Assembly (NCBI RefSeq): GCF_004345245.1
Contig: NZ_SLUQ01000006.1
Coordinates: 248,001 to 312,000, forward strand
From: Rhizobium sp. BK251
GTDB lineage: Bacteria; Pseudomonadota; Alphaproteobacteria; Rhizobiales; Rhizobiaceae
Length of the DNA stretch: 64,000 nucleotides
Direction: 5' to 3'
Shown here: in pieces, positions 11,663-58,503 of the stretch
Numbering within the stretch: position 1 is the first letter of the stretch
How the letters are laid out: each line of letters begins with the position of its first letter
Notes under the pieces: model-generated
Seen by the model: the letters and a program-made list of their open reading frames with translations, nothing else
The model's database searches: none
Told to the model about the DNA's origin: nothing
Translations under genes and position numbers: made by a program

Positions 11663-12880
11663 TCACTTCGGCATCTGTTCCAGAGCGTTCAACATCGGGG
11701 CGAGCGAGAAGCGACCTTCCTCAGCCTTGCGTGTCAAATCCCTCAGATAGCCGCCCGGTGAGCGGATATCGGCTGCGCGCTGCAAGATGGCCGCGACCGT
11801 GACTGCGGCGCCGATATCCCCCATGGCAGCGCACGCCCTTTCCCAGGCATCCGGTGATATGCCGAGCATCGAGCGCACCAGTCCCGCCGTCTCAATCGCC
11901 TCCCGCCACGTTCGAATGCCACCGCGCGCATAGCCCGCCAGATCTGGGCAGAGCTTCAGGAACCGCTCCAGCGTCACACCCGCCGCCTTCAGCTCCGATG
12001 CTTTCTGCCGCGGCGAGGCCGGTGGCTCTGCCTTATTATGTTCTGTGCCGTTTATTTCAAAAGACTGGTCTGTGTTTGAATTCTGAATATGGCGCTCATT
12101 ATCAGAGTCATTGGCGCTCATTTCCTGCTCAGTCATTGAATTGAGGTAGGCATTCTCGGTCTCGGCGCGCAGACGCAGCAGGCCATCCCGGCGGACTTCC
12201 AGCGCCTCGACCGTCGCATTCCGCTTCACAGTCCCCGAGAGTTCCGCCAGGCGGAACGCAATGTCCGTCCAGTCGCCGGCACGGTGTTCGGCAAACGCCG
12301 CCTCTATAAGCTTGGAAATATCGCGTAGATGGAGCGTAATCTCGGCCCTCAGACGCGACACCGCCTTGGCTCTTGCGCGGGCCGCCTCAGCGTGAGCATG
12401 GATCGCGGCGCTCGCAAGCGCCAGCGGCGCGAGGTCGAAGCCGAAGGCATCCTCCACTGCGCCCTGCCCGTCACGGCGGCAGAAGCGCTTGCCGTTCGGG
12501 CTGTCGCGGCGAAAGATCAGTCCCGTCTCCACGAGAAGCGCGATGTGACGGCGCAGCGTCGCCGGAGACATGCCACGGGCCCTGATCGACAGTTCCACAT
12601 TGGAGGGAAAGACGACGATCGGCGCACGGCCGTCGAGCTCCCGGTCACTGTGGAAGCTCGCCAGTGCCTCCAGCACGGCGAGCGTGCGGTCGGAAAGGCC
12701 GTAGGCCTCGCGCGCTTCCGTGAGCGCCCTGAGCAGCTGCCACTTGTCGGCCGCCCCCTGGTCGTTGCCGCCCTTGCCCTCCTTGAGGGCCTGCTGTCGG
12801 CGGGCGACCTCCGTTTGGTGCATGAAAATGTCCGCACGCATCCGTGCGCCGCCGAAAGGCGTCGTTGCAAGCCGTTCCAT
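11663..12880 (-). CDS. repC: Plasmid replication initiator RepC
   Basis: This 405-residue protein has the standard RepC length and opening (MERLATTPFGG). The N-terminal part contains DKWQLLRALTEAREAYGLSD, a replication-initiator helix-turn-helix around ELSIRARGMSPATLRRHIALLVETGLI, and FRRDSPNGKRFCRRD. It ends with the conserved C-terminal block SPGGYLRDLTRKAEEGRFSLAPMLNALEQM. RepC is the initiator of repABC replicons and usually carries the origin within its own coding sequence. Start 12880 is favoured over 12931 because of the family N-terminus and a GGGGAC site. It is downstream of repA on the same strand, but there is no repB between them. A ctRNA-like element lies in the leader. Confidence 0.93.
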   Translation of the reverse strand: MERLATTPFGGARMRADIFMHQTEVARRQQALKEGKGGNDQGAADKWQLLRALTEAREAYGLSDRTLAVLEALASFHSDRELDGRAPIVVFPSNVELSIRARGMSPATLRRHIALLVETGLIFRRDSPNGKRFCRRDGQGAVEDAFGFDLAPLALASAAIHAHAEAARARAKAVSRLRAEITLHLRDISKLIEAAFAEHRAGDWTDIAFRLAELSGTVKRNATVEALEVRRDGLLRLRAETENAYLNSMTEQEMSANDSDNERHIQNSNTDQSFEINGTEHNKAEPPASPRQKASELKAAGVTLERFLKLCPDLAGYARGGIRTWREAIETAGLVRSMLGISPDAWERACAAMGDIGAAVTVAAILQRAADIRSPGGYLRDLTRKAEEGRFSLAPMLNALEQMPK

Positions 12881-13234
12881 TGCTGCCGTCCCCTGTAAAC
12901 AGAGGCAAGAAGCCCGCTCCACGGCCATCATTGGGCAAAGCTCATTCGTTCCCTGGCCACCAATTCAGGCGAAGCAAGGGTAGAATTTCATGACGATTTC
13001 AGCGGGCGGGACGTTTCCGACGCAACAAATCCACAGCCGGAAACGACATTGCGCCGCCGACGCTTGACTTTGACCTTCGGAAGTGATTCTCTCGAATTGC
13101 TACATAGAAGAGGGCTTCCGGAATGGTGACGTTTTGGGGGCCTTTTTTCTTGCTCTCGCGTTTCCTTTCCTGATCGCTATTCAGTCTGCACTTTTCCGTC
13201 CCGGCAAATTGCCTCGACGGCGGATGTCGTCGCT
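12881..13234. other. repA-repC intergenic region lacking repB
   Basis: The 354 bp between the repA stop and the repC start hold the ctRNA but no open frame resembling RepB/ParB. A repB gene needs about 1 kb here in ordinary repABC operons. No parS-like 16-mer (GTT-N4-GC-N4-AAC pattern) was noticed. The AT-rich part around 12970-13030 belongs to the repC leader. Confidence 0.7.
13098..13148 (+). ncRNA. Counter-transcribed RNA of the rep locus (antisense to the repC leader)
   Basis: The plus strand, opposite to repA/repC, carries a promoter-like TTGACT at 13064-13069. About 45 bp on there is a hairpin, GGCTTCC (13113-13119) with GGGGGCC (13136-13142, two G-U pairs), followed directly by six T residues (13143-13148). 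A transcript starting near 13098 would be about 50 nt, the size of the known repABC ctRNAs, which sit just upstream of repC and inhibit its expression. The start position is estimated; the hairpin-plus-T-run is directly visible. Confidence 0.7.
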
Positions 13235-14491
13235 CTATCGTCCCCAGGCCGAATGGATGAGGCTCGTGATCTCGCCATTGACGGCATTCAGGGATTCCAG
13301 CGCCCGGTCATAGGTGGCACGTGTGAAATTCTCCCGGCCGATCTCGTAAAGCGTCTGCTTGGTAAGGCCCGCATCGGAGATCGCCGTGGATTTCACCATG
13401 GCGGAGGTCAGTACCCGGTCGCCGAAGAGCGAGCGCATGAAGCCCACGATCTGCGCCTGTGGCCCATCGTTCGGTTCGAAGCGGGTGACAAGGTAGCGCA
13501 GGAAATCGAAATTGAGCTCGCCGCCTGCCTCACGCACCACGCCAAGGAGATCCGAGGTCATGAACAGGAACTGGTTCATCGAGGCGACATCCAGCATTTG
13601 CGGATGCACGGTGACGATGACGGAAGTCGAGGCGCAGAGTGCCGACAGCGTCAGGTAGCCAAGCTGCGGCGGGCAGTCGATGACGACAACGTCGTAGTCG
13701 TCGGCGACGCTTGCAAGCGCACGTTCGACGCGGGCAAAGAAAAGCGGGCCGGCGTCGCCGCCATTGTGTCGGTCGGCGAGCGCGCGCGGCGTGGTGTGCT
13801 CGAATTCCTGCAGTTCCAGATTGCCGGGAACGAGGTCGAGCCCATCGAAATAGGTCTTGCGGATGACCGAGCTCAGTGGCCGCACCTCGTTGTCGTAGCG
13901 GATTGCTCCATAGAGCGTGTCGTTCGCGGTGAGGTCGAGTTCCGGCTGATAGCCGAAGAGGGCGGAGAGCGAGGCCTGCGGATCGAGATCCACCGCGAGC
14001 ACCCGATGACCGGTGAGCGCCAGATACTGCGCCAGATGCACAGCCGAGGTGGTCTTGCCCGAACCACCTTTGAAGTTGGTGATGGCGATCACTTGCAGGT
14101 GTTCGCCCTTCGCCGGGTCCCGCCAGGCGCGATAGCTGCGGGCGCGGGCGGCATTGCCCTTCGCACGGGCCTGCTCGGCCAGATGGGCCCGCAGCGCGTT
14201 GATATCCGTCAGCGAATAGTGGCGTCGCCCGCCCGCTCCAACCTCGGGCTGCGGCCCCTCGCCCGCAATCGACAGCTGACGCAAGTAACCGTCGGAGACG
14301 CCGACGAGCTTCGCCGCCTCGCCCGAGGTGAAGCCGCGCAAAGTCTTGCGCGCCGCCGGCGGGAAAAGCCGCTCGCGCATCGATTTCAACTGCTCGGACA
14401 GAGCCTGCGCATCGGCCGCAATCGCCTCGTCGGCCGGCAGGCTTCTCGCACTGCCTTCCATCGCCGCTGCTGTCTCCGGCATCAACGCCAT
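13235..14491 (-). CDS. repA: Plasmid partition protein RepA (ParA-type ATPase)
   Basis: This 418-residue ParA-family protein has a DNA-binding N-terminus (about residues 45-110: GFTSGEAAKLVGVSDGYLRQ, then RRHYSLTDINALRAHL). The deviant Walker A is NFKGGSGKTTSAVHLAQYL (about residue 142), followed by VLAVDLDPQASLS and the Walker B-like VVIDCPPQLGYLTLSAL. It ends in ITSLIHSAWGR, the usual end of rhizobial RepA. The start has GAAGAGGGAATGAA in front. In repABC systems RepA segregates the replicon with RepB and represses the operon. Here no repB follows, so it may work without its partner, use a RepB encoded elsewhere, or serve only in regulation. Confidence 0.93.
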   Translation of the reverse strand: MALMPETAAAMEGSARSLPADEAIAADAQALSEQLKSMRERLFPPAARKTLRGFTSGEAAKLVGVSDGYLRQLSIAGEGPQPEVGAGGRRHYSLTDINALRAHLAEQARAKGNAARARSYRAWRDPAKGEHLQVIAITNFKGGSGKTTSAVHLAQYLALTGHRVLAVDLDPQASLSALFGYQPELDLTANDTLYGAIRYDNEVRPLSSVIRKTYFDGLDLVPGNLELQEFEHTTPRALADRHNGGDAGPLFFARVERALASVADDYDVVVIDCPPQLGYLTLSALCASTSVIVTVHPQMLDVASMNQFLFMTSDLLGVVREAGGELNFDFLRYLVTRFEPNDGPQAQIVGFMRSLFGDRVLTSAMVKSTAISDAGLTKQTLYEIGRENFTRATYDRALESLNAVNGEITSLIHSAWGR

Positions 14492-14560
14492 TTCATTCCC
14501 TCTTCAATCGTCCGTTTCCCCTCTGGATGGCCGCTTGCCCGGACCTCGAGCCTGACCAAA

Positions 14561-14598
14561 GAGAATCGCCAACTGGCGCGCAGTGTTTCGCGATTCTC
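14561..14598. promoter_or_regulatory. Inverted repeat in the repA leader (candidate RepA operator)
   Basis: A perfect 9-bp inverted repeat, GAGAATCGC (14561-14569) and GCGATTCTC (14590-14598), flanks 20 bp about 70 bp upstream of the repA start. In repABC replicons a large palindrome downstream of the operon promoter is the RepA/RepB repression site, and this is the natural candidate here. Confidence 0.5.
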
Positions 14599-14603
14599 GC
14601 TCC

Positions 14604-14615
14604 GCGTAAATACGC
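14604..14615. promoter_or_regulatory. 12-bp palindrome upstream of repA
   Basis: GCGTAAATACGC has perfect 5-bp arms about a 2-bp centre and lies just beside the larger inverted repeat at 14561-14598. It could be part of the rep operator or a centromere-like site. It does not match the classical parS consensus of repABC plasmids. Confidence 0.3.
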
Positions 14616-14619
14616 CGGC

Positions 14620-14927
14620 GCGGAACTCTTACAGTGCAGCCCGTCAGTTACGCCGATTGAGGCTATCTGCGACGACTAGCGTATTAGCTGAATAGTTGAC
14701 TGACAAACGGGACGCCGTGGGTGGCGACGTGATAGCCCTGCCAGGGAGGCAGCGTCAACGATCCCGGATCGAGGAGATCGTTCCTGCTCTCTGCATCCCC
14801 TCGATGCTGCTTCGGATAAGCAGACGCCTGCAGCTAAGTGGCTCACGGCGCGCAAGCGTCGTGAGAACTGTTGACGACAAATCATCGACGATTTATCGAT
14901 ATTTTATACAAACATCGGAGTGCGGCG
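14620..14927. other. Divergent promoter region between repA and the hydantoinase gene
   Basis: About 310 bp without a gene. It should hold the repA promoter (a weak TTGTCA with TACGCT, 17-bp spacing, reads toward repA near 14678-14706). It also holds a 7-bp inverted repeat, AACGATC / GATCGTT (14757-14782). A TTGACG at 14871-14876 followed by an AT-rich stretch to about 14912 is the likely hydantoinase promoter, with the ribosome site GGAG at 14917-14920. The regulator is unknown. Confidence 0.4.
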
Positions 14928-19096: not shown

Positions 19097-19530
19097 GCCC
19101 GACGCCGCAGGAAGAGACCAACGGTCATTCTCCTCTCGCGCGCCCTCATGTCGGATTTCCGGTCAGAAACGGGCTTGTTCGAGGCCGGCGGTGACGTTTT
19201 CTCCGCGAGCCGCATAAGTCCAGCCAACAATGGCTTTCGGGCACCCCCATTCCGGCTATCCAAGTCCCTTTCGAATGCGCTGGAGGCTTGAAGCTAGCGA
19301 AAGGACCTGCGCTCGCCGCCCCTCGAGGCCTGCGTTTCGGCCGCCGAGTTGCGGCAATTCTGAAACCTCTCGCGCCGGTGAGGCAGGCGAAGAGGGATCT
19401 CTTGCGCAACGTAACTAAATAACATAACGGTGCTGTGAGTTTGCCGGAGCCGCGCTTAAGAGGACCATCACTTGGCCACACTTCCAGAAAGCTGGTTGCA
19501 GTCTTCGAGAGCCTGTGCGAAGGATCACGC
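19097..19530. other. Gene-free region upstream of the cobalamin riboswitch
   Basis: No convincing coding sequence is seen on either strand in these 434 bp. The only long open frame (minus strand, 19146-19658) is arginine- and proline-rich, runs through the riboswitch and looks like chance. A relatively AT-rich patch at about 19401-19435 is a plausible place for the promoter of the riboswitch transcript, but I cannot define the -35 and -10 boxes with confidence. Confidence 0.4.
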
Positions 19531-19718
19531 AGATGGTGCCGCTGCCGGAAAATCTGGCGGGCGGCTGAAAAGGGAACACGGTGCGGATGACCCAATAGGG
19601 GCCAAGACCGTGGCTGCCCCCGCAACTGTAAGCGGAGAGCGCGTTCGCGATATGCCACTGGCTTTCAAGCCGGGAAGGCGCGAACGGGCCGAGACCCGCG
19701 AGCCAGGAGACCTGCCAT
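19531..19718 (+). promoter_or_regulatory. Cobalamin (B12) riboswitch aptamer
   Basis: Consensus landmarks are clear: AAAAGGGAACACGGTGCGG near 19567-19585, GGCTGCCCCCGCAACTGTAA at 19611-19630 followed by GCGG, and GCCACTGG and GGGAAGGCGCG. The B12 box GAGACC...AGCCAGGAGACCTGCC ends at 19715. The closing P1 helix pairs GATGGT (19531-19536) with GCCATC (19713-19718). Such aptamers bind adenosylcobalamin and shut off corrinoid uptake or synthesis genes. The downstream genes encode an ABC importer, so a role in cobalamin-repressed uptake is expected. Confidence 0.95.
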
Positions 19719-19812
19719 CGACAACGTCAACCGCAACGGACGGGGTGTTCCGATGGAGAATGGCTGGTTTGAAGATTACGCGCTCACGCGCCCATGTCTT
19801 CCTGGGACTGTG

Positions 19813-39454: not shown

Positions 39455-40266
39455 GCAGCCCTCCGCCCGAAGATCTTGCCGAACAATCCACGCTTCTCGC
39501 CCGGAATGGTAACCGGCAGCGTCTCGCCGGCGAGCCGGCGGGCAGCGTCGAAATAAGCCATCGCAGGCGCGCTGCGGCTATCGGCAAGCGTTACCGGCGC
39601 CCCGATATTGGAAGCGCGAAGCACATCCATGCTTTCCGGGATGATGCCCAGGAGCGGAATGGACAGGATCTCCAGCACGTCGTCCACCTTGAGCATGTCG
39701 CCACGCTCGGCGCGGGTCGCATCGTAGCGGGTCAGGAGCAGGTGCTTCTCGATGCGCTCGCCGCGTTCGGCCTTTTCCGTTTTCGAGTCGAGGAGGCCGA
39801 TGATGCGATCGGAGTCGCGCACGGACGAGACTTCGGGGTTTGTGACGACGACGGCCATATCGGCGTGGCGCATGGCAAGAGTGGCGCCGCGTTCGATTCC
39901 CGCCGGGCTGTCGCAGATGATCCAGTCGAAATGCCTTCTCAGGTCGTTGACGACCCGCTCGACACCCTCTGTCGTCAATGCATCCTTATCGCGTGTCTGC
40001 GATGCGGGAAGGAGAAACAGCGTCTCCAATCGCTTGTCGCGGATCAATGCCTGGGGAAGCTTGGCATCGCCCTGGACGACGTTGATCAGGTCGTAGACGA
40101 CTCTGCGCTCCGCGCCCATGACAAGATCGAGGTTCCGCAGCCCGACGTCGAAATCGACGACGACAGTCTTTTCATTCCGCTGCGCCAGGGCCGCCCCGAG
40201 CGCAGCCGTCGAGGTCGTTTTGCCGACGCCACCCTTCCCCGAAGTTACGACAATTACCTTGCCCAT
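39451..40266 (-). CDS. minD: Septum-site-determining ATPase MinD
   Basis: This 271-residue ParA/MinD ATPase has the deviant Walker [11 protein letters not shown], with Lys11 and Lys16, then [19 protein letters not shown] and [20 protein letters not shown]. It ends in the amphipathic membrane-targeting tail [14 protein letters not shown]. Start 40266 is preceded by AGGAGAGGGAA. It recruits MinC to the membrane and oscillates under MinE control in other bacteria. It is not to be confused with the RepA ATPase at 13235. Confidence 0.96.
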
Positions 40267-40300
40267 TCTTTCCCTCTCCTGTGTGATGCCGGCGTTCGGC

Positions 40301-41029
40301 TCAGATAATTTTCTCTGCCATGATCGCGTCGTCCTCGAGCCAAAGCTGCACCGCCTGCCCACGCAGGTCGGTCGCGAGGTCATCCGCGGTCTTGTAAATT
40401 CCGTCTATGGCCAGAAGCTCGGCCTCGAGCTTGCGGCAGAAGATTCGTGCGGACGCATTGCCCACGGAGCCAGCGAGAACCCGCCCGCGCAGCGATCCGT
40501 AAACATGGACGGATCCGCCCGCTATGATCTCGGCGCCCGAGGCGACCGATCCGATGACGGTCACGTCGCCATCGGGAAAGATGACGGATTGGCCGGAGCG
40601 GACGGGCTCGCGGATGACGATCGAGGCAGACGACGGACGTTGCACCTGAATCTGCACCTCGGGACTAGCCTTCGGCGTCTCCGCCGGCGCGTCAGCGTTC
40701 ACGTCGAAATCGGAGACGGGGCGCCCGCCTTTCATCGCGGGCGGCATGCCTGCCTCCAGCTGCGAAGGGCGCGCGCCCTCGATGCCCATGATTCGGACAT
40801 TCCGGCTCGAAAGGTCCGCAATCAACTGCCGAAGCTGCGATCTGTCGATCGAAAGATCCGATATGTCCAGAACGACCGGGCGGCCGAGGAAGAACCCTGC
40901 GGAGCGTGCCGCAAGATCGTCCAGCCGGGTCAGCCAGTCGTCGAAGGGAAGGTCCGGGGAAAGGACGACCGCCAGGAATGAACGGCCTTTGATACGAATC
41001 GAGCGGGCGGCTGTTAACACTTTGGTCAT
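40301..41029 (-). CDS. minC: Septum-site-determining protein MinC
   Basis: This 242-residue protein has the MinC N-terminal domain (about 8-105, SIRIKGRSFLAVVLSPDLPFDDWL), a proline/acidic linker, and the C-terminal beta-helix domain (about 145-240). The latter has SGQSVIFPDGDVTVIGSVASGAEI, GGSVHVYGSLRGRVLAG and ARIFCRKLEAELLAI. It inhibits FtsZ assembly at the poles. First gene of the minCDE operon, 34 bp before minD. A CtrA-type box lies just upstream. Confidence 0.95.
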   Translation of the reverse strand: MTKVLTAARSIRIKGRSFLAVVLSPDLPFDDWLTRLDDLAARSAGFFLGRPVVLDISDLSIDRSQLRQLIADLSSRNVRIMGIEGARPSQLEAGMPPAMKGGRPVSDFDVNADAPAETPKASPEVQIQVQRPSSASIVIREPVRSGQSVIFPDGDVTVIGSVASGAEIIAGGSVHVYGSLRGRVLAGSVGNASARIFCRKLEAELLAIDGIYKTADDLATDLRGQAVQLWLEDDAIMAEKII

Positions 41030-48424: not shown

Positions 48425-50233
48425 TCACCTTCCAGAGAGAGTTTTGATGTAGGCGCGCCATCCGCCGAGTTCGGTGATCTCCTGTGCACCGGCGACGGCA
48501 TGCGCTTCGCACAGGAAACCGGAAACCTGGGAACCATCCGCCAGGGTGACCTTGCCGATGCCGAGAGGCGCCGGGATTTTCTGCACGAACTGGCCGAAGA
48601 CCGCCGGGCTCACCTTCCAGACCTCGACCTCCACTCCCCTACCATCGAAGCCTGGATCACGAACGAGGCCCGGCTTGGGCGGCATCGTATCCGGCAGTAC
48701 GAAGAGGCGATAGTCGCCGGCCGTCCGGCAGGTTCTTGCGAGCTTGCCATCGTTTGCGCTGAGCTCGTGGTTGAGCGGCATGCCCGTCAGGTGCGCGCCA
48801 ACGACCATGACCGTGACCAGCCCATCATCCAGCTCGGCAACGCGGCTTGCCTCGGGGAGCAGGGCCGTGCGGTCCTTGCCCATGCCGACGCCAAGCGCGC
48901 GATGCAATGCATCGGCGAAGGGCGCCAGCGCGTCGTCGCTGAAGGCGGGGCCGAACAGGGTGACGCCTCCGGGCAGGTGGCCATCGGCGTCGAAACCGGC
49001 GGGGATGGCGATCGCCGCATAGCCGAAGAGGTTGGCGAAGTTCGTGTACCGGCCGAAGTGGCCGTTCTTCACGATGGGATCGGCAAGCATCGCCTCGACC
49101 GTGTAGGTCGTCGGCGAGGTCGGCAGCATCAGCACATCGACCTTTTCCCATTCGACCAGCGTCTTCTGGCGCAGGGCCTCCAGCCTGTAGCGGCCCTCGA
49201 AGGCGGCAACGGCGTCATAGCCGCTCGCCCCCTCGATGATCGTCCGCACGGTCGGATCGAAGTCGGCGGCATTGGTGGCGATGAAGTCCTTCACTGCCGC
49301 CAGTCGCTCGGCGACCCATGGGCCGTTATAGAGCAACTCGGCCGCCTGGCGGAACGGCGTGTAGTCGAAGGACACGATCGTCGCGCCGAGCGCTTTCGCC
49401 CGCTCGATCGCGGCATCATACAGAGCTTCATAGGCCTTGTTGCCGAAGAACTCTCGCTCCTTGTCGCCGAGAATACCGACCCTGAGGCCTGATGCCGGCA
49501 GGCTTGCGGGTTCTGCCGGCCGTGAGAAGGGATCGGCGGCATCATAGCCGTCCACCACCTGCCGGATTGCAACGCCATCGCCGACCGTCGCGGCAAAGAC
49601 GGTGACCACATCGACGCTGCGGCAGGCCGGCACCACGCCGACATTCGGAACAAGCCCCGGAGTCGGCTTGATGCCGACGAGATTATTGAAGGCTGCCGGC
49701 ACGCGGCCGGACCCTGCCGTATCCGTGCCCAGCGAGAAGCTGGCGAGGCCGGAGGCGACCGCGACCGCCGAACCCGAGCTTGACCCCCCGGAGACATAGG
49801 CCTTGTCGAACACCGAACGCGGCGCGCCATGCGGCGAGCGCGTGCCGTTGAGGCCCGTGGCAAACTGGTCGAGATTGGTCTTGCCGATGACGAGTGCGCC
49901 TGCTGCCTTCAGCCGAGCGATGACCGTAGCGTCTTTCTCCGGGTGATAGGCGTAGGCTGGGCAGGCCGCGGTCGTCGGCAATTCGGCGACATCGATATTG
50001 TCCTTCACGGCAAACGGGATACCCCACAGCGGTAGGCTGTTCGGTTTCGGCGCGCGCGCAATCAGGTCCCTCGCCGCCGCCCGAAGGTCGTTCTCCGGCG
50101 TTTCCGTGATGAAGATCGCGGGATCGTCGGAGGCCTTGCGGCGGGCGATAACCTCTTCCACGAGGTCGAGCGGCGAAAGTCCGTTTGCGTAAGCGGCCTT
50201 GACCGAAGCGAGATCGAGAATGGCAGGGAGCAT
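48425..50233 (-). CDS. atzF: Allophanate hydrolase (amidase signature family)
   Basis: This 602-residue protein has a domain (about 1-440) of the amidase signature family. The catalytic Lys77 is in FAVKDNID. The Gly/Ser-rich motif GGSSSGSA (149-156) carries the cis-serine, and nucleophile Ser175 lies in GTDTAGSGR. The C-terminal domain (about 470-602, VMVVGAHLTGMPLNHEL onward) is the additional allophanate hydrolase domain. It hydrolyses allophanate to 2 CO2 and 2 NH3. The ATG at 50233 overlaps the carboxylase stop by one base (TGATG). Last gene of the guanidine operon. An upstream in-frame start at 50452 would lie inside the carboxylase and is rejected. Confidence 0.92.
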   Translation of the reverse strand: MLPAILDLASVKAAYANGLSPLDLVEEVIARRKASDDPAIFITETPENDLRAAARDLIARAPKPNSLPLWGIPFAVKDNIDVAELPTTAACPAYAYHPEKDATVIARLKAAGALVIGKTNLDQFATGLNGTRSPHGAPRSVFDKAYVSGGSSSGSAVAVASGLASFSLGTDTAGSGRVPAAFNNLVGIKPTPGLVPNVGVVPACRSVDVVTVFAATVGDGVAIRQVVDGYDAADPFSRPAEPASLPASGLRVGILGDKEREFFGNKAYEALYDAAIERAKALGATIVSFDYTPFRQAAELLYNGPWVAERLAAVKDFIATNAADFDPTVRTIIEGASGYDAVAAFEGRYRLEALRQKTLVEWEKVDVLMLPTSPTTYTVEAMLADPIVKNGHFGRYTNFANLFGYAAIAIPAGFDADGHLPGGVTLFGPAFSDDALAPFADALHRALGVGMGKDRTALLPEASRVAELDDGLVTVMVVGAHLTGMPLNHELSANDGKLARTCRTAGDYRLFVLPDTMPPKPGLVRDPGFDGRGVEVEVWKVSPAVFGQFVQKIPAPLGIGKVTLADGSQVSGFLCEAHAVAGAQEITELGGWRAYIKTLSGR

Positions 50234-53200
50234 CAGATTTCCTCTAGCACGACCAGCACATCGCCGGCCTTGATATTGCGGCCCGGACCGACGCGGAGAT
50301 CGCGAACGGTTCCTGCGGCATGGGCGGTGACATTGATTTCCATCTTCATGGATTCGATGATAGCGAGCGTGTCGCCTGCGGAAACAGGCTGGCCTTCCTC
50401 TACCAGAACTTTCCAGACATTTCCGGGCACGGCGCTCTCCACCCCAAAGCAACCCTGGGGAATGTCGCCGTCGAGACCGTTGCCGGTTCCTTCGTCTGTG
50501 ACGAAGCTGTCGAGGCCTTGCTCCTTCCAGCGCCGGCGTTCTGCCTCGAACGCAGCCTGCTGCATCGATTTGAAAGCGGAGATGCCGGGCGCGCCGGCGG
50601 CGAGTTCCGCCTCGTAGGCCGCGTATGAAAATTCGCCTTCCTCGATGCGTACGGGATAGCCGCCGTGCGGAAAAGCAGCGCGCGCCTCCGTCAGTTCCTC
50701 ATGGCTGACGGGGAAGAACCGGATCTGGTCGAAGAAGTCGAGAAGCCACGGCTTGCCCTTGGTAAAAAGCGGCGTCTGACGCCAGCTATTCCAGACCTGG
50801 ATCGTCCGACCGAACAGTTGGTAGCCGCCGGGGCCTTCCATTCCATAGATGCACATATAGGCGCCGCCGATGCCGACGGCGTTTTCGGGCGTCCAAGTAC
50901 GCGCCGGGTTGTACTTGGTCGTGACCAGACGGTGGCGCGGATCGAGCGGCGTTGCGACCGGAGCACCCAGATAGACGTCGCCCAGCCCCATCACCATATA
51001 GCTTGCCCCGAGGATCGTATCCTTGACCGCCTGCTCATCCTTCAACCCGTTGATGCGGCGAATGAATTCGATGTTGGAAGGGCACCAGGGCGCATTCGGT
51101 CGCACGAGCTCCTGGTATTTCCGCATGGCGAGCTGCGCGTCAGGATCATTCCAGGAGAGCGGCAGGTGGATCGTGCGGCTCGGGACCTTGACGTCCTGCA
51201 CCGCCGGCAGGCTTGCCTCTATCTCGCCCAGCAGCCCGAGCAGCCGCCTGCGTGTCAGTGCCGTCCCGTCATAGTGGACCTGCAGCGAACGGATGCCCGG
51301 CGTCAGGTCGATGAGGCCGTCGAGCCTGGCTTCCCCAACCGCCTGCATCAGAAGATGCGTCCGAAGCCTGAGCGCGATGTCGAGCTGCATTGGGCCGTAT
51401 TCGACGAGCAGGTTGTCGTCCCCCTGCCGGCGATAGACCACCGGCACCGGTCCGTCCTCGCTCTTGCCGATGATGGCGGAGCCGGCCTCTTCGCCGATGC
51501 GCCTTACCGCGGGACCGGCGATGGGGTCGTCGGGTCGCGTGACGGCGTGGAACCGGATCGTGTCGCCCGGCTTGAACTGCCCCATCTTCCATTGCTCGTC
51601 GCGGGCGACCACCGCCGGGCAGACGAAGCCGCCAAGGCTCGGGCCGTCAGGGCCGAGAATGATCGGCATGTCGCCGGTGAAATCGATGGCGCCGACCGCA
51701 TAGGCATTGTCGTGCAGGTTGGAGGGGTGAAGTCCCGCCTCGCCGCCGTCGGCACGCGCCCATTTCGGAGCGGGGCCGATGAGGCGCACGCCGGTGCGCG
51801 CGCTGTTGAAGTGCACCTCGTACTCGGTAGCGAAAAGTGTCCCGATATCCTCCTCGAGAAAGAAATCCGGCGCACCGTGCGGCCCATAGACCACGCCAAC
51901 CGACCATTCCCGCGTCAGCTGGGCGGGATCGTCGGCGCGTTTTGGTGCCGCCTGTTCGGCGCGTGCAAGCCTCAGCACATGGCCCGCACGCAGGGTGCCC
52001 GTGGCATTGCCGCCGAACTGGCCGAGCCCGAATGTGGCGCGCGATCCAAGCACGACGGGAGCCGCAAACCCGCCCGCCACGGCGAGATAGGCCCGCTGGC
52101 CAGGACCCTGGATCGTTCCGACCGAGAGCGTCTGGCCGGCATTTACCGGAACTGCGACGTCATGCGAAATCGGCAAGCCATCGAGCGTCATCGGCATATG
52201 CGCTCCCGCCAGCGCGATCACCGCATCCGAGAAGAAGCGCAGGACGGGACCCGAGACCGTCAGCTCAAGCGCCGCCGTCTCATCGCTATTGCCAACCAGG
52301 CGATTGGCGTGACGGAAGGAGCGTTCGTCCATCGGACCGCTCGGCGGCACGCCGACATGCCAGAGGCCGAGGCGTCCCGGCAGCTCCTGCAGGCTCGAAT
52401 GCGCGCCGGGTGCGATCACCTCGACGACATCGGGAACGAAGGCGAAGTCCTTCAACGCCGTCGTCGCGACATCCCCGCTTACGAAAAGGTCGGAAGCGGC
52501 GATAGCTCGCAGATAGTCCAGATTGGTCTCGATGCCGGAGAGCGCTGTCTTTTCAAGCGCGTCCGACAGCGCCGCAATGGCTGATGGCCTGTCGCACGCC
52601 GAAACGATCACTTTGGCAAGCATCGGATCGTAGAATGCAGTCACCTCCGTACCGGTCTCGACCCAGCCGTCGACGCGGACGCCATCCGGGAAGACGACCT
52701 CGGTCAGCAGGCCCGCGCTCGGACGAAAGCCGGCATGGGGCATTTCTGCATAGACACGCGCCTCGATGGCCGCACCTCTCGCCACGAGCGCCTCCCTGCC
52801 AGTCAGCACATCCTCGCCGGCTGCCTGGCGGATCATCCACTCGACCAGATCGATGTCGAAGACTGCCTCCGTTACCGGATGCTCGACCTGCAGCCGGGTA
52901 TTGACCTCTAGGAAGTAGAATTCCTCCCGTGCCGGATCATAGATGAACTCGACCGTGCCGGCGGACTCGTAGTTGACTGATTTGCCCAGAGCGACCGCCG
53001 CAGCATGCAGGCTGGCGCGCACAGCATCCGGAAGGTTGGGTGCCGGTGTCTCCTCGATAACCTTCTGGTTGCGGCGTTGCAGCGAGCAGTCGCGCTCGCC
53101 CAGCGCAATCACGCGACCCTTGCCGTCGCCGAAGATCTGGACCTCGACATGGCGGGCCCTGGCTACGAAGCATTCGAGATAGACGCGTGCATCGCCGAAG

Positions 53201-53769
53201 CTCGCTCGCGCCGTGCGCTGCACGGTCGCGAAGACCGCCTCGAGTGCTTCCGGGCCGTCGCACAGCTGCATGCCGATGCCGCCGCCGCCGGCCGTCGACT
53301 TCAGCATTACCGGATAGCCGATCTGCCGGGCCGCAGCCAGGGCGGCCTCGGCCGTGTCGAGCAGGCCGCTGCCGGGGAGAAGTGGTACGCCGCTTTCGTG
53401 CGCCAATTCGCGTGCGGTATGCTTCAATCCGAAGGCCAGGATATTGTCCGGCCGAGGCCCGATGAAGGCGATCCCTTCATCCTTCAACCGCTCGGCGAAA
53501 CCGATGTTTTCCGACAGGAAACCGTAGCCGGGATGCACGGCCTCGGCACCTGTGGCCCTGCAGGCGGCAATCACTGCATCGACGTCGAGGTAGCTTTCGG
53601 ACGCGGGCGAAGGGCCGATACGCACGGCCTCGTCGGCCATCAGGACGGCCTTGGAAAACCGGTCTGCGTCGGAATAGACGGCGACGGATGCAATGCCGAG
53701 CGTCCTCAAGGTTCTGATGATCCGGACGGCTATCTCGCCCCGGTTGGCGATGAGTACCTTTGTGAACAT
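50233..53769 (-). CDS. Biotin-dependent guanidine/urea carboxylase
   Basis: This 1178-residue multidomain enzyme has biotin carboxylase at about 1-450 ([24 protein letters not shown]-grasp with [31 protein letters not shown]). The carboxyltransferase region is made of KipA/KipI-like parts ([38 protein letters not shown] and onward). The C-terminal biotinyl domain has the biotinylated Lys1142 in [11 protein letters not shown]. Enzymes in operons with UAAP proteins and a guanidine-I riboswitch carboxylate guanidine better than urea. The urea/guanidine choice depends on one substrate residue that I cannot place reliably by eye. It starts 3 bp after the UAAP2 gene. Confidence 0.9.
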
Positions 53770-55261: not shown

Positions 55262-55299
55262 GGTTCGTCTCCTTGCAATTACTGGCCGGGTCGTCCCGG

Positions 55300-56085
55300 C
55301 TATCGACCGTTGAGTGCCGGGCCGTCCCGGTCCGGTCGGATAAGAGAAGACTGGCCGGCGCGGCGCGGCGGCCAGATCGGAATGTCACGGGTGATCGTCG
55401 CACCGTAGCGCAGCCTCTCCTCCGGCCGGTCTCGGCGACGCTCGAAGGCGACGACACGGGTGGCGAGCGCGAAGGCCTCGCGCATGTCGTGGGTAACCAT
55501 CACCACGGTCATCGGGTTTTCATGCCAGAGCCGCTTCATCAACGAATGGATCTCGGCGCGGGTGCCGGGATCGAGTGCGCCGAAGGGCTCGTCGAGCAGG
55601 AGCACGCGCGGCTTCATGACGAGCGCCTGTGCAAGCGCCAGTCGCTGCTGCATGCCGCCGGAGAGCTGTGCGGGATACTTGTCCTCCGCTTGCGAGAGAC
55701 CGACCTCGTTCAGCATCGCGCGAGCCTCGGCAATCGCCGCTTTCCGCGCATAGCCGAACAGCCGCCCGCAATAGCGCGAGGCGACAAGCTCCTTGCCGAG
55801 AAGGACATTGCCGAGCACCGTCAGATGCTGGAAGACGGAATAGCGCTGAAAGACGACGCCCCGGTCCGGCCCCGGCTCCGACGGTAACGCAACTCCATCG
55901 ATGAGGATCTGGCCACGTGTCGGCCGTTCCTCGCCAAGCAGCATGCGCAGGAACGTGGTCTTGCCGCAGCCGGACGGACCGACCAGAGCGACGAAAGCGC
56001 GGGATTCGATGTCGATCGAGATCTTCTCCAGCACGATCTGGTCGCCATATTCCTTCCAGACGGCATCGACTGTGAGCGCGCTCAT
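55300..56085 (-). CDS. NitT/TauT-type ABC transporter ATPase (probable guanidine importer)
   Basis: This 261-residue ATPase has Walker A GPSGCGKTTFLRMLLG (about residue 38), signature LSGGMQQRLALAQALVMK, Walker B VLLLDEPFGALDPGTR and switch His in MVTHDMREAFAL. This is the nitrate/taurine/sulphonate class. Start ATG 56085 overlaps the permease stop by 4 bp. The longer open frame to 56367 is overlap with the permease. Encoded within the guanidine operon; related importers occur under guanidine riboswitches in other proteobacteria. Confidence 0.9.
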   Translation of the reverse strand: MSALTVDAVWKEYGDQIVLEKISIDIESRAFVALVGPSGCGKTTFLRMLLGEERPTRGQILIDGVALPSEPGPDRGVVFQRYSVFQHLTVLGNVLLGKELVASRYCGRLFGYARKAAIAEARAMLNEVGLSQAEDKYPAQLSGGMQQRLALAQALVMKPRVLLLDEPFGALDPGTRAEIHSLMKRLWHENPMTVVMVTHDMREAFALATRVVAFERRRDRPEERLRYGATITRDIPIWPPRRAGQSSLIRPDRDGPALNGR

Positions 56086-58107: not shown

Positions 58108-58220
58108 CTAACGAGGTCTCCCGGGCTTTTATCCCGCCGTGCACCCGACGGGATTTCTCCCCGTCGGTGACCGCTCTCGGACCAGTCACGTCAAATGACG
58201 CCGGAACCCTAGCGACCAAC
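58108..58220 (-). promoter_or_regulatory. Guanidine-I (ykkC) riboswitch aptamer
   Basis: Consensus blocks in order on the minus strand are CTAGGGTTCCGG (58212-58201), CTGGTCCGAGAGC (58185-58173), and GGCGGGATAAAAGCCCGGGAGA ending about 58117, which I quote only in part: GGGATAAAAGCCCGGGAGA. These are the diagnostic conserved segments of ykkC subtype 1. It precedes a transporter and carboxylase/UAAP/allophanate hydrolase operon, the classical proteobacterial context. Guanidine binding is expected to turn the operon on. Confidence 0.94.
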
Positions 58221-58503
58221 TCATGAACTTCTAATGCAAGGCACGTGCCATATGCACAATCGCGCGGATTTCCGGCCCTTTCACCGGGCATCCCGTGCGA
58301 CGATTAAAAAAGCTGCACTTTCTTTGGTCGCCGGCGCTCAAAACTGAGGCGCAGGCACGGAACCTTGAATCGAAGGTATTCCGACATTCCAGGCAGGATA
58401 TGGCCGAAATGGCTGTGCGCGTCGCGATCCAATTGGTCATTTCTTCGCCATACCGTACCGGACTGGCCGAAAGTGACCTCGCGCACCTGCGTATAATCTG
58501 ATG

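Follow-up and report, generated by a model that had tools for sequence, protein, structure and literature searches.

In the Alphaproteobacteria, repABC is described as one jointly controlled operon, in which the genes for replication and partition follow each other in the order repA, repB and repC (PMC9040568, PMC2783167). Operons that lack one gene have been reported; six such "faulty operons" were counted in 2009, five of them repAB and one repAC (PMC2783167). Here we analysed 64,000 nucleotides of the Rhizobium sp. BK251 genome (positions 248001-312000 of contig NZ_SLUQ01000006.1, here C6, 520,690 bases or 521 kb; this whole stretch is called the window), which contain a repA and a repC gene and no repB. 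We estimate the probability at about two in three that the window locus is the replication half of a split repABC system. The repAC genes would act as replicator, a distant repAB-parS locus would be responsible for partition, and the RepA encoded in the window (RepA1) would be kept as a regulator.

Orphan repAB operons, repC-only loci and composite plasmids with two rep modules are already known. The repAC locus counted in 2009 resembles the window locus in having repA and repC without repB; the section that mentions it names neither the replicon nor a repAB partner (PMC2783167). With 88% identity, the nearest match to the window RepA in the plasmid collection comes from pSymB-type replicons, where it is encoded at the second rep locus, the repA1B1 locus of Sinorhizobium, which is located beside urt genes. 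That locus is likewise an incomplete operon; however, it is the mirror image of the window locus, repAB without repC, and its RepA has a glutamine at the position of residue 256 of RepA1. In S. meliloti 1021 the locus is found at 1611-1614 kb of pSymB (L017), a replicon that also carries a complete repABC, and repC is missing there as well as in six similar loci (L307-L312), thus in 7/7. The repC-only family of the pRmeGR4a type shares with the window a RepC without repB but lacks repA too, and such loci occur on plasmids that also have repABC (PMC10194956). Martelella pMM259 and pTiAB2/73 are described as having two rep loci per replicon, as C6 does, probably as a result of plasmid fusion. 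In contrast to the complementary loci of C6, pMM259 has two functional repABC modules and pTiAB2/73 has one complete and one decayed module. A repAC locus paired with a repAB locus on one replicon was not found described in the open literature, which is a weak negative, since subscription papers were mostly outside this search. The term "repAC" in PMC3123555 and PMC9025767 is a primer name and a table label and does not refer to repAC loci.

Both rep genes of the window are located on the minus strand. The repA gene (13235-14491) encodes a ParA-type ATPase of 418 amino acids that belongs to the plasmid-partition RepA family (TIGR03453, 644 bits, cut-off 348) and has an intact Walker A motif, KGGSGKT. 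The repC gene (11663-12880) encodes a replication initiator of 405 amino acids, which scores 416 bits with the RepC family model NF040974 (cut-off 150) and is above the cut-off for the Pfam domains RP-C and RP-C_C as well. The mechanically called open reading frame (ORF) of repC begins at 12931 (422 amino acids), and alignment with homologues favours the ATG at 12880. An earlier note on this DNA had described both genes as intact (418 and 405 residues) and separated by 354 bp, and both statements hold. The spacer (12881-13234, minus strand) retains the conserved sequence that ordinary operons place between repB and repC, including an element that resembles the counter-transcribed RNA (ctRNA), and repB itself is absent. 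The same note saw no RepB frame in the 64 kb, and we agree: neither the whole-genome search with TIGR03454 (E≤0.1) nor tblastn with RepB queries detected a RepB in the window. A repB hidden in the interval, which the note had considered, did not come to light, as a very permissive tblastn search of the 354 bp for a repB relic yielded chance-level scraps only. The gene order of a repABC operon is therefore not present here.

The region upstream of repA (14492-14700, minus strand) is presumed to contain the promoter and operator. It has short motifs of the CGTAA type that are common to relatives, and no clear operator palindrome was seen 5′ of repA. The region treated by the earlier note reaches into it as far as 14615, 124 bp before repA starts. 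Complete repABC operons in Neorhizobium, Shinella and Rhizobium encode the closest RepC proteins; in a comparison with 60 genomes of the genus, the top matches listed, leaving aside the own genome, have 48-49% identity. No plasmid record was found to contain most of the DNA surrounding the locus (8-20 kb of the window).

The ctRNA-like antisense RNA is predicted at 13109-13153 on the plus strand, thus upstream of and antisense to repC, which is the place and strand expected of a ctRNA. The match to RF00489 (38.7 bits, E 3.7e-07) is below the Rfam gathering score of 50, as is the match in an ordinary repABC operon of Neorhizobium petrolearium (47.6 bits). Within repC, a stretch of 120 bp (12035-12154, minus strand) is A+T-rich, with 40% GC compared to 63% for the window and 64% for the gene, and is a candidate for the origin of replication (oriV). 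An A+T-rich stretch is found at the same relative position in all five repC genes examined (four from repAC loci, one from repABC), and for p42d an A+T-rich region inside repC is reported to be part of the origin (PMC3155836). The RepA and RepC families and the A+T-rich stretch are shared with the repABC operons of p42d, pTi and pSymB, and the ctRNA-like element takes the place that the ctRNA has there before repC. Unlike these, the window has neither a repB nor a consensus parS, and the partition genes form a repAB locus of their own at a distance of about 225 kb.

This second locus was identified by searching the whole genome, a draft of 31 contigs and 6.69 Mb. RepB proteins above the cut-off are encoded at four places, on contigs C9, C12 and C16 and at C6:32106-33074, about 215 kb to the left of the window start. 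RepC is likewise found at four places, on C9, C12 and C16 and, on C6, solely in the window. Contigs C9, C12 and C16 each carry a complete set of repA, repB and repC. On C6, repB2 (TIGR03454 above cut-off) follows repA2 (C6:33313-34554), and no repC is located nearby; a permissive tblastn search for a repC relic downstream of repA2B2 again gave chance-level scraps only. The single repC and the single repB of C6 are therefore distributed over two reciprocal half-operons. RepA1 and RepA2 are 66% identical and belong to different RepA families. The earlier note had suggested a genome search for a second repABC locus or a stand-alone RepB. Its idea of a centromere-binding partner encoded outside the locus gains support, and in a sharper form than the note gave it: repB is present on C6 itself, as part of a repAB operon from which repC is missing.

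A parS-like palindrome of 16 bp, GTTGGGAGCTCCCAAC, is present just twice in the whole genome, at C6:33021 and C6:33276, both at repA2B2, and agrees with the published parS consensus (PMC9040568). The proposed partition half, repA2-repB2-parS, covers C6:32088-34554 and is approximately 225-227 kb away from the repAC locus of the window. The consensus palindrome GTTNNNNGCNNNNAAC has no match in the 64 kb window and two at the distant repAB. GTTGGGAGCTCCCAAC is kept at the similar repAB locus of Metarhizobium album (type Y, see below), despite the RepB proteins being just 56-57% identical.

To see how common this arrangement is, genome contigs were scanned by RepC alignment, and the best 80 of 147 relatives together with seven plasmid loci were examined (87 loci). 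Eight of the 87 have no repB. Two of these (L111 and L134) lack repA as well; the other six are repAC loci with intact genes, additional to the window locus. They are located on the closed plasmid pEMPC1 of Sinorhizobium sp. BG8 (L030), in M. album (L060), Mycoplana dimorpha (L061) and Rhizobiales AFS054471 (L075), and in two metagenome-assembled genomes (MAGs; L059 and L110). A repAB locus without repC is present in all seven genomes or records that have an intact repAC. Both halves are found on one contig in five of the seven, one of them the closed plasmid, at distances of approximately 22 kb (M. dimorpha), 24 kb (AFS054471), 31 kb (M. album), 47 kb (BG8) and 227 kb (own genome). The closed pEMPC1 (1,138,596 bp) encodes a single RepB and a single RepC, separated by 47 kb. 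M. dimorpha and AFS054471 have two RepB and two RepC each, with one pair joined; nine RepB and eight RepC are found in M. album (seven joined), and the two MAGs have eight RepB and seven RepC (six joined) and ten RepB and nine RepC (eight joined). The earlier note had offered a natural repAC system as one option, which the six further intact loci largely support. The recurrence of this split among several related plasmids suggests a natural and working arrangement rather than a broken relic. On contig C45 of M. album (348 kb; L204, L207), all three rep loci are incomplete: a repAC is accompanied by two repAB loci that differ in kind.

In RepC trees the seven proteins from repAC loci form two well-supported clades, one with the window, M. 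album and the two MAGs and the other with BG8, M. dimorpha and AFS054471. A single repAC clade was rejected in a RepC subset tree (approximately unbiased test, p 0.023; 35 of 79 rows, chosen by hand). The corresponding RepA tree (a subset of 36 of 87 rows) needs three changes, and one clade is not rejected there (p 0.105). We favour, on the RepC trees, that repAC arose at least twice. The repAB partners form three supported groups: X (BG8, M. dimorpha, AFS054471), Y (own genome, M. album) and Z (the second locus of M. album and both MAGs). RepC clades and partner types broadly correspond.

The repA gene remains under strong purifying selection without its repB. Pairwise ratios of non-synonymous to synonymous substitution rates (dN/dS) for repA1 are 0.004-0.086 inside the repAC clades and 0.125 between the window and M. 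album; the corresponding values in repAC genomes are 0.10-0.23 for repC1, 0.05-0.11 for repA2 and 0.17-0.32 for repB2. The Walker A motif is intact in 7/7 repAC RepAs. We then compared the repAC RepAs at the 240 RepA columns that are conserved across 95% or more of 66 RepB-bearing relatives. They deviate at 3-6 of these columns, compared to a median of 1 (range 0-10) for repABC RepAs. A single column, residue 256 of the window protein, is changed in all seven; the next-highest column is changed in three. This residue is glutamine in 72/72 RepB-bearing proteins of the RepA1 family and E, H, H, H, G, G and S in the repAC RepAs, with glutamate in the window protein. Other RepA families, which have G, S, A or K at that position, are excluded from these counts. 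The 72 proteins, which are the 66 relatives and those of six further pSymB-type loci, include the RepAs of all seven pSymB-type repAB loci, which lost repC but kept repB and retain the glutamine; the change therefore goes with the absence of RepB. In clade-structured random draws, 3/300 also gave a column changed in every row, the null model having been devised post hoc, after the column had been seen. Residue 256 aligns to a presumed helix before the Walker B strand.

Taken as a working system, the two loci could function as follows. RepC would initiate replication of the C6 replicon from an oriV inside repC, the ctRNA would limit RepC, and RepA2 and RepB2 together with their parS sites would segregate the replicon. 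A repC locus without repB can work, because RepC alone is reported to suffice for replication in p42d (PMC3155836). RepA1, without a cognate RepB, would most likely be retained as repressor of its own repAC operon; RepA is reported to bind its own operator with ADP (PMC4492784). A more far-reaching version can be offered only tentatively and is somewhat doubtful: repABC may have been split repeatedly, at least twice, into distant repAC and repAB loci on one replicon, and RepA1 may each time have become a RepB-free, dedicated regulator of replication that is marked by residue 256, which would then be a site of RepA-RepB coupling. Halves that are 22-227 kb apart are a natural test of whether coupling of replication and partition is needed. 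A RepA that evolves without RepB separates the repressor role from the partition role, and residue 256 is a candidate for the contact between RepA and RepB.

Several observations weigh against a split repABC with an independent RepA1 and bear on what else the locus might be. RepA alone is reported to be a weak repressor in p42d and in RtTA1 plasmids, where RepB strengthens the repression (PMC4492784). This argues against a regulator that works wholly without RepB, unless RepA1 itself has changed. RepA1 may instead use RepB2 in trans, either acting as the ATPase of partition or repressing repAC jointly with RepB2, and both loci would then form one regulatory circuit. The strong conservation of repA1 without an own RepB, including the Walker A motif, and the usual requirement of RepB for full repABC repression (PMC4492784) would fit such cross-talk. 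We nevertheless consider it unlikely, as RepB2 has its own adjoining and likewise conserved partner in RepA2, from which RepA1 differs in family and in about a third of its residues, and as the residue that is invariant with a cognate RepB is altered in all seven repAC RepAs. The RepA proteins of the RtTA1 plasmids, moreover, are reported not to cross-react with the operators of other plasmids (PMC4492784). A GTT...AAC palindrome of the parS kind is found at none of the seven repAC loci (64 kb searched for the window, 10.6-13.2 kb for the others). This absence carries little weight, because the consensus palindrome is also missing from several complete repABC loci. For the repAB types X and Z no shared palindrome of at least 12 bp was found.

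The locus might also be the decaying leftover of an absorbed plasmid, on a replicon that is replicated by another locus, for instance a complete repABC on the same molecule. The draft state of the genome leaves room for this, since C6 could join C9, C12 or C16, all three of which have a complete repABC. Cointegrates in which a second operon has decayed are also on record, pTiAB2/73 being an example (PMC8554961). In the two MAGs the repAB is on a different contig from the repAC, whose contigs are 15 kb long and 164 kb without RepB. The origin could be placed by GC skew and the strand bias of GGG(C/N)AGGG neither on the closed pEMPC1 nor on C6 (512,000 of 520,690 bases), so this approach was uninformative. 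We used 17 near-closed genomes of the same genus, none with an intact repAC, as a control (88 RepB and 92 RepC in total). Six RepB proteins in five of the 17 genomes have no RepC near, each beside a repA, which means that orphan repAB is not rare; ten RepC in six genomes have no RepB near, nine of which also lack a nearby repA. One locus, L214 (G038:C2:32000-37500), is repAC-like with a truncated RepA and adjoins transposase-like ORFs; its genome has no orphan repAB, and the other repABC loci there are complete. L214 is decayed and has no partner repAB, therefore repAC can also be a relic. The control thus indicates that orphan repAB is fairly common, that intact repAC is not, and that decayed repAC exists. 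For the window, however, a relic appears improbable, still more so than cross-talk: both genes are intact with scores far above the cut-offs, the ctRNA region and the A+T-rich stretch are conserved, repA is under purifying selection in the repAC lineages, C6 has no other RepC and pEMPC1 none beyond that of its repAC. The relic option of the earlier note is disfavoured for the same reasons. An artefact of this 31-contig draft, in which misassembly or a sequencing error had removed or displaced repB, is very improbable and already largely refuted, as the gap holds no remnant of repB and the order repA-ctRNA-repC recurs in six independent assemblies, one of them a closed plasmid.

Among the other loci inspected, that of Rhizobium sp. 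CC-CFT758 (NZ_CP104990.1, L029) has repB and repC each in two frames, as by frameshift or sequencing error, and is annotated with repA only. Elsewhere in the window, 39697-40338 (minus strand) has weak ParA-like similarity, with approximately 24-25% identity to RepA over about 220-240 residues. A strong cobalamin riboswitch (127.8 bits) is located at 19517-19733 (plus strand). Guanidine riboswitches of two classes, Guanidine-II (35.4 bits, 55286-55333) and Guanidine-I (88.8 bits, 58116-58223), both above the gathering score and on the minus strand, are found about 3 kb apart around ORFs that resemble ABC transporters. They are upstream of a large ORF similar to biotin carboxylase/urea carboxylase (50233-53769), these genes being named by reading of the ORFs.

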